From: Streptomyces sp. NBC_00464 | GTDB taxonomy: Bacteria; Actinomycetota; Actinomycetes; Streptomycetales; Streptomycetaceae | DNA length: 64,000 nt | NCBI RefSeq assembly: GCF_036013915.1 | Contig: NZ_CP107899.1 | Span: 992,001 to 1,056,000, forward strand | Direction: 5' to 3' | Shown here: piece by piece, positions 19,901 to 33,513 of the stretch | How positions within the stretch are numbered: position 1 is the stretch's first letter | How the letters are laid out: each line of letters opens with the position of its first letter | The notes under the pieces: model-generated | Database searches by the model: none | Told to the model about the DNA's origin: nothing | Seen by the model: only the letters and a program-made list of their open reading frames with translations | Position numbers and translations under genes: made by a program

Positions 19901-20506
19901 ATGACCCAGCACCCCACTGCGGACGAGCAAAGGCCCGCGAACCGGGGGCCGAAGGCCGCCGCCGGCAACCGGGCCGCGCTGGTCTCCGCAGCCCGGGAGA
20001 TCTACGCGGCGCAGGGTCTGGACGCCCCGCTCTCCGGGATCGCCCGCAGGGCCGGGGTCGGGCAGGCCGTTCTGTACCGCCACTTCCCGGACCGGAACGC
20101 CATCGCGGCCGCGGTCCTGGAGGAGAACGTGCGCCAGATCGAGCAGGCGGCCGGCGAGGGTACGAGTCTCTCCGGGGTCCTGGGCGTGCTGACCTGGCAC
20201 CTGACACAGTCGGCGGCCTTCATCAGCCTGCTGCACGCCGACGAGGCGAGCGGGCACCCGCGGCAGCACACCCGCACGTTCGCCCGGGACATGCACGACC
20301 GGGTCGAGCGCGCCCTGTGGGGGTGCCTGCCGGACGGTCACCGGCTGGGTGCGCCGGACGTCCTCATGCTCGCCGTCTCCATGGTCTCCGGAGCCGTCAC
20401 CGGCCCGACCCGCGAGAGGCGTGAGGTCCGGGCGCTGGCAGCCTGGCGCCTGCTCGGCGTCGAGGTGGGGCCGGTGCGGCCCTTCGAGGGGTGCGAAGCC
20501 TCCTAG
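19901..20506 (+). CDS. TetR family transcriptional regulator
   Basis: 201 residues. The N-terminal TetR HTH (about 20-70) is clear: [40 protein letters not shown] and [14 protein letters not shown]. The C-terminal ligand domain is helical and has no recognisable effector signature. It is convergent with the lipoprotein gene at 20517. A 22-bp perfect inverted repeat about 1.1 kb downstream, in the lipoprotein/monooxygenase divergent promoter, is of the size and symmetry of TetR operators and is the best candidate target. Confidence 0.9.
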
Positions 20507-20516
20507 GGGTGTGCGG

Positions 20517-21536
20517 TCAGCCGCCGTTGGACTGGCGGATGCCCTTGGCGAGCGCGTCGAAGGTGTACAGGTAGCCGCCGGCGGGTCCGCTGACGGTCAT
20601 GTACGCCGTGGTACCGCCGGGCTCGATCGCCACGTTGGTCGCCGACTCCAGCCCTTCGGTGCGGGCCGGGACCTCCACCGTCGCGAGGCGCTCGCCGTAC
20701 TTGCTGTACACGGCCATCGCGGGTCGGCCGTGCAGTGCCTGGTACAGGTTGCCGTCGGCGTCCACCGCGATCGAGTCGGTCTGGGCGACGCCTGCGTCGA
20801 CGCGGACCGCCGTGTGCCGGCCCGCCATTCCGGGTCGCTGCTCGACGGGAAGGTAGGAGATCCGGTTCTCCGTCAGTTCGCTGACCCACAGCCCGCGGTA
20901 GTCCACGTCGAACGAGATGCCGTTCGTCGCGGAGAGCCCGCCGGCCAGGACGGTGGCGTCGCCGCCGTCACGGCCGATGCGCACCACGCGCCCGCGCGCC
21001 TCACCCTCGGACATGCCGAGGGCGTCGCTGACGTACAGATTGCCGTCCGGGTCGAAGGCGATGTCGTCGGGCTGCATCCGGGCGCCGTCGACCTCGCCGG
21101 TGAAGAAGGTGCGCCTGCCGCTGCCGTCCGGGGCCAGGGAGACGATCTCGCCGTGGGCGAAGTCGGACAGGTAGAGCCGCCCGTCGTACGGGCTGAACTG
21201 GGCCGAGGTGTAGGCCCCCCGGCTGTCGGTGAACACCTTGCGCACCGTCTTCTTCCGGACATCCACACGCAGTACCTTCGGCTTCCCGGCGGGCGCGGTG
21301 ACGTCGACGACGTTCAGCTTGCCGTCCGCGCCGAAGACCGGGCCCTCCAGCAGAGTCATCCCGGTCTCCTCGTGCACCGTGGTCAGCCGCATGAGCTCAC
21401 GGGCGGTGACGGTCCTGCCCGAAGCAGAGGATTCCGCCCTTCCGCCGGGGGTGTACGTCTCGCTGCCGCACCCGGTCAGAGCCAGCGCGCCCAGGGTGGC
21501 GAGCACGGCCAGTGAGCGGTTCCGGAGTCGTCGCAT
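20517..21536 (-). CDS. secreted lipoprotein, SMP-30/gluconolactonase-like beta-propeller
   Basis: 339 residues with a lipoprotein signal peptide (lipobox LALTGC, Cys at about 23). The mature protein has SMP-30/gluconolactonase/NHL-like propeller repeats: [50 protein letters not shown] and [15 protein letters not shown]. It is probably a calcium-dependent lactonase or a structural propeller anchored outside the membrane. It is divergent from the flavin monooxygenase. BVMOs make lactones and SMP-30 proteins often open them, so the two may act in sequence; this is an inference. Confidence 0.8.
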
Positions 21537-21582
21537 GAGGTGTCCCTCTTCCTGTCCGAAGATCGACGTGCACCGGCACCCT

Positions 21583-21604
21583 AACCGGACAGACTTGTCC
21601 GGTT
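21583..21604. promoter_or_regulatory. perfect 22-bp palindromic operator, TetR type
   Basis: Half-sites AACCGGACA and TGTCCGGTT are perfectly symmetric around a 4-base centre (GACT). It lies 46 bp upstream of the lipoprotein start and 112 bp upstream of the monooxygenase start, so one bound dimer could control both. The nearby TetR gene is the most likely binder. Confidence 0.7.
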
Positions 21605-21716
21605 GTTGTTACGGTGCGGAAGGCCGCCCGGATCCACGGCAGTTCGGCCGCCCATGGGCGGTTCGGCCCGCAACGGACAGACGCACAACCGACAAAGAGA
21701 AGACGAGGCCCCCCAC

Positions 21717-23507
21717 ATGACGTCGCCTCAGACCCCGAGCCCCGATGAGCTCTCCGCGCTGCGCGGGCGCTACCGCCGCGAACGTGAGCGGCGGGTACGG
21801 CCCGACGGCCCCCGCCAATATCGCGCCGCAGAAGCCGAGTTCGGCTTCTACGCCGCCGACCCGTACGTGGCGGAGCAGGGCGAGCGCGAGCCGCTGTGCG
21901 ACACCGTCGACGTCGCCGTCATCGGCGGCGGGTTCGGCGGGATCCTCGCCGGAGCACGTCTACGTCAGCGGGGCGTGGAACGCGTCCGCCTCGTCGACAA
22001 GGGCGGCGATTTCGGCGGCACCTGGTACTGGAACCGGTACCCGGGCATCCACTGCGACATCGAGTCCCACGTATACCTGCCGATGCTCGACGAGACCGGG
22101 TACGTACCGCGGTGGAAGTACTCCCCGGGAGAGGAGATCCGGCGTCACGCGGTACGGATCGCGCAGAAGTACGACCTCTACTCGGACGCCCTCTTCTCGA
22201 CCACCGTCACCGCCCTGAACTGGGAGGAGAGCTCCCGTACATGGATCGTGACGACTGACCGCGGCGACACGTTCCGGGCGACGTACGTCGTCACCGCCAC
22301 CGGCACCCTGTCCGATCCGAAGCTGCCGGGGATACCCGGAATCGAGAGCTTCGCGGGGCACACGTTCCACACCTCCCGGTGGGACTACGCCTACACCGGC
22401 GGCTCCCCCGAGGGCGGCCTGACGGGGCTGGCGGGCAAGCGGGTGGGGGTCGTCGGCACCGGCGCCACCGGCGTGCAGGTCATTCCGATGCTGGCCGAGG
22501 ACGCGGGGCACGTCCACGTCTTCCAGCGCACCCCCTCCACGGTGGACGTGCGCGCCAACCGTCGCACCACGGCCGCCGACGTCGGCGCGGACCGCGAGGG
22601 CTGGGCCGGTGCGCGGCGCGAGAACTTCCTGCGCATCGTCTCGGGCGAGGCGTTCGGCGAGGATCTCGTGGCGGACGGCTGGACGTCGTCGGCCGGTCTG
22701 CTGGAGAAGCTGTTGCCGAGCTTCCGACGCCCCGATGACCGGGAGGACTTCGAAGCCGCCTACGAGGCCGCCGACGCCGCCAAGATGAACGAGGTACGGA
22801 CCCGTGTCGAGCGGACCGTCGCGGACCCGGCGACGTCCGAGGCGCTCAAGCCCTGGTACCGGTACGCCTGCAAGCGCCCCACCTTCTCCGACCTGTACTA
22901 CCCGGCGTTCAACCGGAGCAACGTGACCCTGGTCGACACCGCGGACACCCACGGCATCGAACGTGTCACCGAGGACGGCGTGGTGGTGAACGGCACCGCG
23001 TACGCACTCGACTGCCTGATCTTCGCCACCGGGTTCTCCGTCGGCGTCTCCGGCGTCCTCTCCGGAAAGCTGCCCGTCCACGGCCGGGGAGGCACCCAAC
23101 TGCTCCACGCCTGGGGGCAGCACGGTATCCGGAGCCTCCACGGCTTCACCTGCAACGGCTTCCCGAATCTGATCCAGATGGGTTCGCTGCAGAACGCGAG
23201 CAGTGTCAACTACACGCACATCCTCGACGAGCAGGCCGTGCACGCGGCCGCCCTCGTCTCGGCCGCCGAGGACGGGGGCGCGCTCCTCGAACCCTCCCGC
23301 GAGGCCGAGGACGCCTGGCTCGCCACGATCACACAGGGCGCCCCGGATCACGAGTGGTTCCACGCCGAGTGCACTCCCGGCTACTACAACCGTGAAGGGC
23401 GCGGCCGCCCCAATGGCCCGCACGCCTATCCACACGGTGCCGCCGCCTTCCACGAGCTCCTGCGCCGCTGGCGGGAGGAGTCCATGGACGAGGCGCTCAC
23501 CCCGTAG
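21717..23507 (+). CDS. flavin-containing (Baeyer-Villiger type) monooxygenase
   Basis: 596 residues from the ATG at 21717. It has an FAD Rossmann motif (VAVIGGGFGGILAGARL, about 66-82), the BVMO fingerprint FxGxxxHTxxW(D) as FAGHTFHTSRWDY near 213-225, and a second Rossmann motif for NADPH (GVVGTGATGVQ). FATGFSVG and the NGFPNLIQMGSLQNAS region near the end are also family features. These enzymes insert oxygen next to a ketone, giving esters or lactones. An N-terminal extension of about 60 residues matches the larger cyclohexanone/cyclopentadecanone-type subgroup. It is followed by a convergent alpha/beta hydrolase. Confidence 0.9.
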   Translation: MTSPQTPSPDELSALRGRYRRERERRVRPDGPRQYRAAEAEFGFYAADPYVAEQGEREPLCDTVDVAVIGGGFGGILAGARLRQRGVERVRLVDKGGDFGGTWYWNRYPGIHCDIESHVYLPMLDETGYVPRWKYSPGEEIRRHAVRIAQKYDLYSDALFSTTVTALNWEESSRTWIVTTDRGDTFRATYVVTATGTLSDPKLPGIPGIESFAGHTFHTSRWDYAYTGGSPEGGLTGLAGKRVGVVGTGATGVQVIPMLAEDAGHVHVFQRTPSTVDVRANRRTTAADVGADREGWAGARRENFLRIVSGEAFGEDLVADGWTSSAGLLEKLLPSFRRPDDREDFEAAYEAADAAKMNEVRTRVERTVADPATSEALKPWYRYACKRPTFSDLYYPAFNRSNVTLVDTADTHGIERVTEDGVVVNGTAYALDCLIFATGFSVGVSGVLSGKLPVHGRGGTQLLHAWGQHGIRSLHGFTCNGFPNLIQMGSLQNASSVNYTHILDEQAVHAAALVSAAEDGGALLEPSREAEDAWLATITQGAPDHEWFHAECTPGYYNREGRGRPNGPHAYPHGAAAFHELLRRWREESMDEALTP

Positions 23508-30199: not shown

Positions 30200-31132
30200 T
30201 CAGCTCTTGAGGTACGGCTGAAGCAGAGTGCTCCATGCGTCGTTCATCTGCTCGAACTCAGCGGGGCACCTGGCCGCACGGGTCTCGGGCAGCACGCCGT
30301 CCGGGTTCTCCGCGCTTTGCACGACGCCCTGGAAGGAGCTGGGGTCGGAGCCGTACAACCAGCAGATCTCGTTGTAGAAGCGCTGGGCACTGAGCGAGTG
30401 CTCGTCCGAGAACTTCCCTGAGATGTCTCCCTGTTGGTCCGCCGCGGCGAGCGCGCCCCACGCGTCGATGGCACTCACCGCGTACTCGCGGTGCAGGGAG
30501 TCACCCACGAGCAGCAGGGTGGCGAGCTGGTCGGCCGCGTCCTCCTCCTTGCCGGTGGTCGCCAGGCCGTAGACGTCGATCAGCCCGTGGCCCAGTTCAT
30601 GGAGGACGGAACTGTTGGTGAAGCCGATGAGGTCGTCCTCGGTGGCCCGCGTCTGCTGGGCCTCGGTGCCCGTGGTGTTCTGCGCGCTGAAGACGGGGGC
30701 GAACTGGGAGATGAGTTCGTAGCAGAGCGTGATGCTCTGCGTCTTGGGGTCCCAGAAGGCGTTGACCTCACCGCAGCTGCGCCCGGTCAGGGGTATGTTC
30801 TGGGGCAGGGCGATCCGGGAGTTGGCGTGCGCCGCGACGCCTTCCAGGACTTCGTTCGCCTGAAGGAACTGCTGGGCCTGCTGGTCCTCCTGGGTCGCAC
30901 CGGCCTCGTAGGTGACGACGAGTTCCCCGGTGCCCTGAGGGGCGGGAGTGGTCTTCTGCGGTAGCGCGGCGTCCCGGACCGGGCTCCCTGTCGCCGGCGC
31001 GGTCGGTGCGGCCTGGACCGTGTGCCCGCGCGCGGCGCCGGCGGTGCCCGATGCGCAGCCCGTGACCGATGCGATCGCGAGGGAGGCGGCGAGCGCGACC
31101 ATCGCCCGTGTTCGCGTACTGGTGCCTTCCAC
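30200..31132 (-). CDS. secreted lipoprotein, DUF4344-type metallopeptidase
   Basis: 310 residues from a GTG at 31132 (SD AAAGGTGG). The signal peptide ends in a lipobox (SVTGC, Cys near 26). After a Pro/Thr/Ala-rich linker, the DUF4344 domain (about 70-305) carries the zinc motif HELGHGLIDVYGL near residue 180 and an EEDAADQLATLL helix that probably supplies the third ligand. CGEVNAFWDPKTQSITLCYE precedes it. It is likely a membrane-anchored extracellular zinc protease; the substrate is unknown. Its upstream region runs into the mobile unit that starts at 31305. Confidence 0.8.
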   Translation of the reverse strand: MEGTSTRTRAMVALAASLAIASVTGCASGTAGAARGHTVQAAPTAPATGSPVRDAALPQKTTPAPQGTGELVVTYEAGATQEDQQAQQFLQANEVLEGVAAHANSRIALPQNIPLTGRSCGEVNAFWDPKTQSITLCYELISQFAPVFSAQNTTGTEAQQTRATEDDLIGFTNSSVLHELGHGLIDVYGLATTGKEEDAADQLATLLLVGDSLHREYAVSAIDAWGALAAADQQGDISGKFSDEHSLSAQRFYNEICWLYGSDPSSFQGVVQSAENPDGVLPETRAARCPAEFEQMNDAWSTLLQPYLKS

Positions 31133-31304
31133 CTGATCCACCTTTCTGACCCGGTGAGGGTCCGGCGTGGGAGCCGGTGGCGTGGGGAACCCGGGGTTTT
31201 TCCGGCCGATGGACCGACCCGCGTACCTCAGGGACCAACCTGACAGCGGGAGGGCAGGGGCGCTCGCGGCAATCCGCCATTCGGGTGGCAGGCCGGGTCG
31301 GGAC

Positions 31305-31368
31305 CAGGGCCCCGGCGAGTGCCTGGATCGCCCCACCCTGGGTGATTCAGGCACTCGCCGGGGCCCTG
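31305..31368. mobile_element. 64-bp internally deleted IS derivative (MITE-like palindrome)
   Basis: Two 21-bp arms, perfectly complementary (CAGGGCCCCGGCGAGTGCCTG), separated by 22 bp. Reading in from the left, it matches the left end of the IS at 31844 for about 43 bases, including GATCGCCCCACCCTGGG and GTGATT. It then jumps to the IS right end (CAGGCACTCGCCGGGGCCC). It is therefore the two IS ends joined with the transposase deleted. As a strong hairpin it may also end transcription between the lipoprotein and VOC genes. Confidence 0.75.
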
Positions 31369-31411
31369 GCTTCACCCTTGCCACCCGCGGTCCGCGTGGC
31401 AAGATCGCCGG

Positions 31412-31813
31412 ATGCTGAAGCTCACCGATTTCATCATCGACTGCCCCGAGCCCATGAAGCTCGCGGCGTTCTACGCCGAGGTCACCGGCGAACCCGTCAA
31501 GCCCGACAGCGACGACAACTGGGCCGGCATCAAGTTGGGCAAGATCGAGCTCGCGTTCCAGCGCGTCGACAACTTCCGCGCCCCGAACTGGCCCGACGAC
31601 GAGCACCCCAAGCAGTTCCACCTCGACTTCGAAGTCGACGAGTTCGAACCCGAGGAACAGCGCCTCACCGCCCTCGGCGCCACCCTCCGCAAGGACTTCG
31701 TCGGCGAGGAGGGCTACGGCTGGCGCGTCTACACCGACCCGGTCGGCCACCCCTTCTGCCTGTGCCGCAACAGGCGCGTCCAGTGGATCGACGGCGAGCC
31801 CGTCGGGCTCTGA
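31412..31813 (+). CDS. VOC superfamily protein carried in the mobile unit
   Basis: 133 residues with paired VOC modules: LTDFIIDCPEPMKLAAFYAE, GIKLGKIELAFQRVDNF, then FHLDFEVDEFEPEEQRLTAL and WRVYTDPVGHPFCLCRNRR. It resembles Streptomyces glyoxalase-like proteins annotated as VOC or bleomycin-resistance-like; the substrate is unknown. The gene has no close SD. It is bracketed by an IS-derived 64-bp palindrome (44 bp upstream) and the left end of an IS (31 bp downstream), so it appears to be cargo. Confidence 0.85.
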   Translation: MLKLTDFIIDCPEPMKLAAFYAEVTGEPVKPDSDDNWAGIKLGKIELAFQRVDNFRAPNWPDDEHPKQFHLDFEVDEFEPEEQRLTALGATLRKDFVGEEGYGWRVYTDPVGHPFCLCRNRRVQWIDGEPVGL

Positions 31814-31916
31814 CGGACACCGCATGGGCCCGGGGGCTCCGGGCATGGCCCCGGCGAGTACCTGGATCGCCCCACCCTGGGGTGATTGATCTCGATGGCG
31901 AGCCCCGGAAGCAGAT

Positions 31917-31979
31917 GAACACGGCACCTGTGGATCATGTAGTTCTCTACGCTGCAAGATCCATGAAGGTGCCGTGTTC
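31917..31979 (+). promoter_or_regulatory. long hairpin burying the transposase start
   Basis: Outer arms GAACACGGCACCT (31917-31929) and AGGTGCCGTGTTC (31967-31979) pair perfectly over 13 bp. Inside are TGGATC/GATCCA and a small GTAG/CTAC stem. The GTG start at 31974 lies in the right arm, so any transcript entering from outside would hide it. IS elements such as IS10 and IS50 use the same device against read-through expression. Confidence 0.55.
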
Positions 31980-33265
31980 GTTCCTCCATCATCTCCTGTC
32001 GCTGTCCGTGCGCCTCATGCGCCCTGCCTGGAAGCTCTCCGCGAGGGTGTGGCCAAGGACCAAGTCCGTGGCCTGGTTGCCGAGTTCGAGTCGGTCACCG
32101 ATCCGCGAGGGGCCTGCGGAGTGCGCTACCGGCTCTCCTCTGTCCTGGCCCTGGTGGTCTGCGCGATGACCCCGTCCGGCCACGACTCGATCACCGCGGC
32201 GGCGGAGTGGTGCCGACGTGCGACGCCGGAGGAGCTGGCCGCCTTCGGCCTGCCGTACCACCCGCTCCTTGGCCGCTACCGGATCCCGAGTGAGAAAACC
32301 ATGCGCAGCATCCTGGGGCGGCTCGATCCCGGCGAGATCAGCGCGGCCGGGCACGACTACCTGCGGCCCCTGCTGTCCGCACGGTCCCGCCGTCCGGAGC
32401 CGGTGATGCCCGACGGTGGCACCGAGCGTGAACAGCGTCGGGCCCACCGGGCGGCCGCCCGCGCCGAGCCGGTACGCGGCGGCGGGCGATCGCAGCGGAC
32501 GGTAAGTGCCTGCGCGGCGCCAGACGCCCCGACGGCAGGCGCGTCTTCGTCCTGTCCGCCGTCCGGCACGGCGACGGTGTCACGCTCGCCTCCCGCGAGA
32601 TCGGCGCGAAGACCAACGAAATCCCCGAGTTCGCACCCCTGCTCGACCAGATCGACGACGCGGATCTCGCGGGGGCGGTCGTCACCGCCGACGCCCTCCA
32701 CGCCCAACACGACCACGCCACCTACCTGCGCGAACGCGGCGCCCACTACCTGCTGACCATCAAGAACAACCAGCGCAGACATGCCCGTCAACTCCACGCC
32801 CTGCCCTGGAAAGACATCCCCGTGATTCACCGCGACGACGCCCGGGGACACGGCCGCCACGAGCAGCGGCTCGTACAGGTCGTCACCGTCGACGGCCTGC
32901 TCTTCCCGCACGCAGCACAGGTCCTGCGTATCCAGCGCCGTCGTCGTCTCTACGGGGCGAAGAAGTGGTCCAGCGAGACCGTCTACGCCGTCACCGACCT
33001 GCCCGCCGAGGAAGCGAACGCAGCCGAGATCGCATCCTGGGCTCGCGGCCACTGGACCGTGGAGAACACCGTCCACTGGTGCCGAGATGTCACCTTCAAC
33101 GAGGATAAGTCCCAGGTCAGGACCCACAATGCGCCCGCCGTACTCGCTGCCCTCCGCGACCTGATCCGCAGCGCGCTCAAGCTCGCCGGCTACGTCAACA
33201 CCGCCGCCGGACGACGAGCCCACACCGACCGCCCCCGCGTCCTCACCCTCTACGGCATCACATGA
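31974..33265 (+). pseudogene. ISAs1-like transposase, frameshifted
   Basis: The first frame (GTG 31974 to about 32477) encodes FESVTDPRGACGVRYRLSSV, a DSITAAAEWCRRATPEE segment and PSEKTMRSILGRLD. Family similarity then continues in the -1 frame from about 32477: RAIAADGKCLRGARR (first catalytic Asp), VVTADALHAQHDHATYLRER (second Asp), LLTIKNNQ, and HWTVENTVHWCRDVTFNEDK (catalytic Glu) to a TGA at 33265. The shift falls in a CGGCGGCGG run. A one-base loss is the simplest reading; a programmed -1 shift cannot be excluded. All three DDE residues remain across the two frames. Confidence 0.8.
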
Positions 33266-33513
33266 TCAAACCGGACGAGCCAGGCACTCGCCGGGGCCCT
33301 GGGGTCGGGACGCTGTCGGGCAACGCTCCGGGAGCGGGGACCCCAAGGTGCCGGGCACGCCGTCCGGGACGCCATAGGAATCCCCTATAGCACCTGCTTA
33401 CATTTCGTCTTTGCCTCTCCTTCTCTCCCGAACGTACCGTCAGAACAGCTCGACGACGAAGAATTCCACTTCTGCCGGGCGGACACGTACTCATTCCTGA
33501 GAGGACCAGCGAC

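Follow-up and report, generated by a model that had tools for sequence, protein, structure and literature searches.

A single IS can move the DNA adjacent to it, as ISs with passenger genes do, and in Paracoccus marcusii a mosaic element is reportedly made of ISPmar4, of the ISAs1 family, and a transposable module (TMo), a case that we know by its title alone. In the passages of PMC3281130 that deal with TMos, it is one IS that moves adjacent DNA. In classical IS composite transposons (e.g. Tn5), as presented in the corresponding part of PMC10969869, genes between IS ends move together, and one partner may be defective. Miniature transposon derivatives serving as ends that carry foreign genes appear in the relevant sections of PMC4133298 for TIME-COMP elements, with repeats at the outer borders, and of PMC10969869 for MITE-flanked integrons; in both, as these sections have it, a miniature stands at both ends and the transposase comes from elsewhere. 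For ISAs1 elements, the pertinent part of a Frankia study gives CAGGG termini and 10-bp repeats (PMC11946415). The unit described here adds a cargo gene to an ISAs1-type IS and has a 64-bp derivative as one of its ends. Unlike the classical composite transposons, it has one partner of only 64 bp, which codes for nothing; unlike the TIME-COMP elements and the MITE-flanked integrons, it pairs one miniature with one whole IS; and unlike TMos, the Paracoccus mosaic and passenger-gene ISs, it has a second end, of the same IS type, that sets the far border. No description of this hybrid form, a whole IS and a 64-bp end around a cargo, was found in our searches of the open-licence literature.

The window, by which we mean the whole stretch of 64,000 nucleotides that was analysed, corresponds to positions 992001-1056000 of contig C1 in the 8.96-Mb genome of Streptomyces sp. 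NBC_00464. In it, a unit of 1997 bp (31305-33301), made of a palindrome, a VOC gene and an IS, lies between a DUF4344 gene (minus strand, approximately 30200-31126) and an SDR gene (from 33514 on). Both outer ends of the unit begin with CAGGGCCCCGGCGAGTGCC, and the 10-mer GGGTCGGGAC abuts them on the outside as an exact 10-bp match, with its left copy at 31295-31304 and its right copy at 33302-33311 (both on the plus strand). The preliminary description of this DNA had placed IS ends at 31305 and 33301 with an identical 10-mer just outside, and these coordinates proved exact to the base. It had also stated that the repeat is missing around either IS copy alone; indeed, no flanking repeat of 4 bases or more is present around the 64-mer alone or around the inner IS (31844-33301) alone. 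A single target duplication thus encloses the whole unit and none encloses its separate parts, as in a composite transposon. The earlier designation as a very small composite transposon is therefore apt for the way in which the unit would work, with the duplication around all of it. It does not fit the classical definition, in which the cargo lies between two IS copies, because one IS copy is here reduced to a 64-bp end pair and a whole IS is found on one side only.

The IS is 1458 bp long (31844-33301, plus strand). Its transposase gene (31974-33265, plus strand) has lost its continuous frame through a small deletion near 32476, as seen against the open 431-aa frame found in Streptomyces durocortorensis, a break that the preliminary description does not mention. 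That open 431-aa transposase matches NF033564, the ISAs1 model, with 158.9 bits (cutoff 70, E 1.6e-46), and the pieces of the window transposase, searched apart in Pfam, match DDE_Tnp_1_assoc and DDE_Tnp_1. The ISAs1 family is defined by a DDE transposase, by terminal repeats of 14-22 bp starting with CAGGG and by a target duplication of about 10 bp; the first is present, the second is found at both outer ends of the unit, and the 10 bp around the unit correspond to the third. The IS shares with the ISAs1 family the NF033564 match, the CAGGG termini and the 9-10 bp repeats (family definition as in part of PMC11946415), in agreement with the earlier view of an ISAs1-like IS. The outer right end (33281-33301, minus strand), which is the right terminal repeat of the IS, keeps an intact CAGGG terminus. 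The inner left end of the IS (31844-31886, plus strand) differs from the outer end at its terminus, where CATGG replaces the family's CAGGG start, and at position 17. Both copies of the unit have the CATGG terminus and GTACC further in, and the left terminus is CAGGG in the other 10 of 12 IS copies compared. A programmed frameshift of the transposase was rejected because in 10 of the 12 copies the frame stays open over 455-473 codons without interruption; it is shorter only in the window copy (288 codons) and in copy G295a (378 codons).

We then looked at this IS in other genomes of the genus. It was matched at E 1e-30 or better in 40 of 392, its own included, and among the matches listed six others (G104, G202, G224, G295, G313 and G339) carry it at full length with 86-99% identity; elsewhere in its own genome nothing matches it better than at 72% over approximately 380 bp. 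The flanks of 10 foreign copies, each with both ends complete and both flanks readable, were inspected for repeats. An exact repeat of 9-10 bp is present in five of them (G295b, G295c, G313b, G104a and G104b, the last counted despite an insertion of about 1.5 kb that splits it), a 10-bp repeat can be read in G313a provided that a duplication of 6 bp at the terminus is tolerated, and the remaining four have none (G295a, G339 and the plasmid copies of NBC_01384 and NBC_00289). The repeat of G313a and the register of NBC_00289 were read by eye from the flanks, and the count leaves out the G224 copy, which lies at the end of a contig, and two degraded copies of G220, neither of which has a repeat. 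In the G313 genome, one ISAs1-type copy (L105:3530-3574) has its left terminus, CAGGGC, twice in tandem inside an otherwise exact 10-bp duplication. Given the 9-10 bp repeats at related copies, the 10 bp around the unit are of the size that this transposase makes.

The outer left end of the unit is a palindrome of 64 bp (31305-31368, no strand assigned), in which an IS left end (about 43 bp) is joined to an IS right end (about 21 bp) and the CAGGG terminus is intact. Its first 38 nt match the left end of the IS (31844 on) at 95%, and its last 21 nt, together with one base beyond, match the right end at 100%; the element can be read as an IS whose interior has been deleted. In single-stranded form it is predicted to fold into a single hairpin with 29 base pairs (z -9.6 with respect to 200 shuffles). 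MITEs are short non-coding elements whose terminal repeats are those of an autonomous element related to them, and this description suits an element of 64 bp that is palindromic and matched at both IS ends. They also multiply independently, each with its own duplication, and here just two of the 333 genus genomes, namely the window's own and G220, contain the end-pair pattern, neither copy with a duplication of its own. The pattern was an exact one with 5-35 bases between the arms, which copies cut by contig ends escape, as happened in S. durocortorensis because the contig is cut there; no viral contig contained it. When the left region (116 bases) was compared with 392 genus genomes at E 0.001, 20 genomes gave some match, and among the matches listed the palindrome was spanned only in its own genome and in G220. 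The G220 palindrome is perfect, 65 bp long (L101:5637-5701, that is, G220:C1:7223636-7223700) and without target duplication. Two truncated genes that are unrelated to each other meet precisely at this palindrome, as if it marked an IS-linked rearrangement: one, with a relative on a plasmid of Streptomyces sp. NBC_00161, is cut there, and what is left of the other, with a relative on pFRL3, follows. A solo palindrome may therefore be a recombination scar and not a thriving MITE.

The cargo is a VOC / Glyoxalase_6 gene (31412-31813, plus strand) coding for 133 aa, with Glyoxalase_6 as the sole Pfam family above cutoff. That it might be a drug-resistance gene, as had been proposed, found no support: NCBIfam, searched for a known resistance VOC protein, gave no match at E 0.01, and Pfam returned nothing but Glyoxalase_6. 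A phmmer search against solved structures produced nothing better than E 0.04. The two copies of the unit differ in two silent and two changed codons of the VOC gene, too few to judge selection. In Streptomyces sp. WZ.A104, a VOC gene that matches window 31393-31813 at 96% identity stands between unrelated flanks. The match begins 19 bp upstream of the start codon and extends to the stop codon; the upstream region of the gene in the unit (31369-31411, plus strand) thus has its last 19 bp in common with WZ.A104, and its first 24 bp match nothing there. No IS ends are found in the 8.4-kb locus that holds the WZ.A104 gene, and among the 59 loci with VOC relatives on which IS ends were sought, only that of S. 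durocortorensis has them. At 43 of the 59 loci, 13 or more of the 19 bases immediately upstream of the start codon agree, which leads us to infer that the VOC gene took a short promoter region with it.

The second copy of the unit belongs to a species of the same genus, S. durocortorensis RHZ10 (G202), on contig NZ_JAFEUF010000008.1 (G202:C601). Window 31360-33301, the part with the VOC gene and the IS, is matched there at 98.6% over 1946 bp, and the match stops exactly at the IS right end, with unrelated sequence beyond. On the other side the contig breaks off within the palindrome, in poly-C/G junk (L113:9817-9906, that is, G202:C601:75816-75905), so that only about 10 bases of the palindrome can be read and the left end and left repeat cannot, as if the hairpin had stopped sequencing or assembly. 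The left junction was sought with the predicted 10-mer CCGGGCAGAC joined to the IS terminus, allowing one mismatch; the search gave eight one-mismatch hits, four of these loci did not match the window when compared with it, and the junction was not found. The S. durocortorensis genome, searched with the IS end, contained a lone exact match, the known right end. Both genomes also have in common a 3.6-kb block of three genes (window 19921-23491; G202:C601:68929-72590), whose products we take to be a TetR-like protein, a lipoprotein and a Baeyer-Villiger-type monooxygenase. This block is 78-82% identical, and as the unit is far more alike than that, it probably moved horizontally and recently. 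The S. durocortorensis unit lies about 1.3 kb from the block and the window unit about 8 kb from its related block, so that both insertion sites are close to this block, perhaps by coincidence.

The flanks were then used to look for an insertion site without the unit. The left flank (30902-31263, ending 41 bases before the junction) gave no empty site in 392 genus genomes; it was matched at E 1e-5 in 20 of them, its own genome apart only over short stretches of at most about 70 bases. A search with 4.8 kb around the unit against 61 genomes revealed no homologous empty site among the matches listed. Six loci from this search were compared with the window, and five have the SDR gene downstream; in four relatives (G007, G014, G021 and G031) the right flank is common only from about 33352-33377 on, in the SDR promoter region. 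Within window 33352-33513, upstream of the SDR gene, there is a CATAGGAATCCCCTATAG-like palindromic block, common upstream of the SDR homologs of the same four relatives and possibly an operator. The comparison with an empty site suggested in the preliminary description thus yielded none, and neither of the two findings that would speak against the unit, a VOC gene at this locus without the IS ends or an empty site holding both 10-mers, was encountered. The test is a weak one, since none of the genomes searched has homologous flanks on both sides. The unit matched no phage; 55 plasmid records matched it, none over 80% of the query, and with the left region as query two plasmid records gave matches of 39 bases each, as long as an IS end.

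In summary, we consider it very probable, on the evidence of the compared sequences, that the 1997-bp unit at 31305-33301 was inserted as one transposon. The earlier claim that a deleted IS copy, a VOC gene and an IS moved together is supported by the 10-bp repeat, which is of the size seen at five of the ten related IS copies, and also by the occurrence of the VOC and IS part in a second species beside a different right flank.

One could suppose instead that the VOC gene was resident and that the 64-bp element on its left and the IS on its right were inserted independently, the 10-bp match being coincidental. A copy of this IS can be without a repeat, as in 4 of the 10 foreign copies, and no empty site is known; nevertheless, base composition gives a chance of about 4e-6 for a 10-base match at two fixed junctions, and 8 of 2,000,000 random pairs of window positions matched over 10 bases. 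GGGTCGGGAC itself occurs twice in the window, both times at the borders of the unit (chance expectation 1.11, anywhere and on both strands). As a nearly identical VOC and IS part also stands beside another right flank in S. durocortorensis, independent insertions appear highly improbable to us. Separate insertions at a chromosomal VOC gene may have taken place elsewhere, in S. durocortorensis or a relative, so that the unit was assembled there and only the window copy moved whole. In S. durocortorensis the inner IS has CCGGG on both flanks; this 5-bp match may be due to chance or hint at another history, in which this species could keep the assembly site, and the left junction is unread in the contig. 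Against this, wherever this IS type shows repeats they are 9-10 bp long, not 5, and the 1200 bases right of the S. durocortorensis unit match none of 58 other VOC loci, and we regard such an assembly as unlikely.

A further alternative concerns only the origin of the left end. Instead of being a MITE that was inserted, the 64-bp element may be a scar left beside the VOC gene by an IS-mediated deletion or by recombination of two IS copies, and later used as a transposon end. The sole other palindrome found, that of G220, sits without a repeat at a junction of unrelated truncated genes, and end pairs in just 2 of 333 genus genomes are unlike what a multiplying MITE would leave; on the other hand, the window element joins the left and right ends of the IS cleanly, as a MITE of the deletion type would, and a search for exact ends overlooks copies cut by contig ends, such as that of S. 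durocortorensis. We hold a scar to be a serious possibility, if not the favoured one, and the movement of the finished unit would be unaffected by it.

Returning to insertion of the unit as one transposon, the mechanism that we propose is that an ISAs1-type DDE transposase uses the right end of the whole IS together with the outer end of the 64-bp deletion derivative of the same IS type, so that the VOC gene between the two used ends would travel along. The inner left end, with its CATGG terminus, is presumably weak or dead and would block or weaken solo movement of the IS; given this mutation, we infer that the transposase pairs the outer 64-bp end with the right end instead of the inner left end and carries the VOC gene. 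As the window transposase is frameshifted, the window copy is now probably movable only with a transposase from elsewhere. More tentatively, and with a likelihood that we put just short of even, the IS may have become an obligate gene carrier that spreads between Streptomyces species, its own left end point-mutated and the role of that end taken by the 64-bp end pair beyond the VOC gene.

If the IS is such an obligate carrier, every jump must take the VOC gene with it, which would make the unit a minimal carrier of 2 kb, and the change in the inner end could be a simple way for an IS to become locked to its cargo. Units of this kind are easily missed in annotation, because only a single IS is called, with no more than a 64-bp palindrome as the second end; one of the two assemblies broke at this palindrome, and other draft genomes may likewise lack unit ends of this sort. 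With the unit present in two species, and with a close relative of its cargo gene that is free of IS ends, the example suggests that a single IS, together with a 64-bp scrap of itself, could make an ordinary chromosomal gene mobile.
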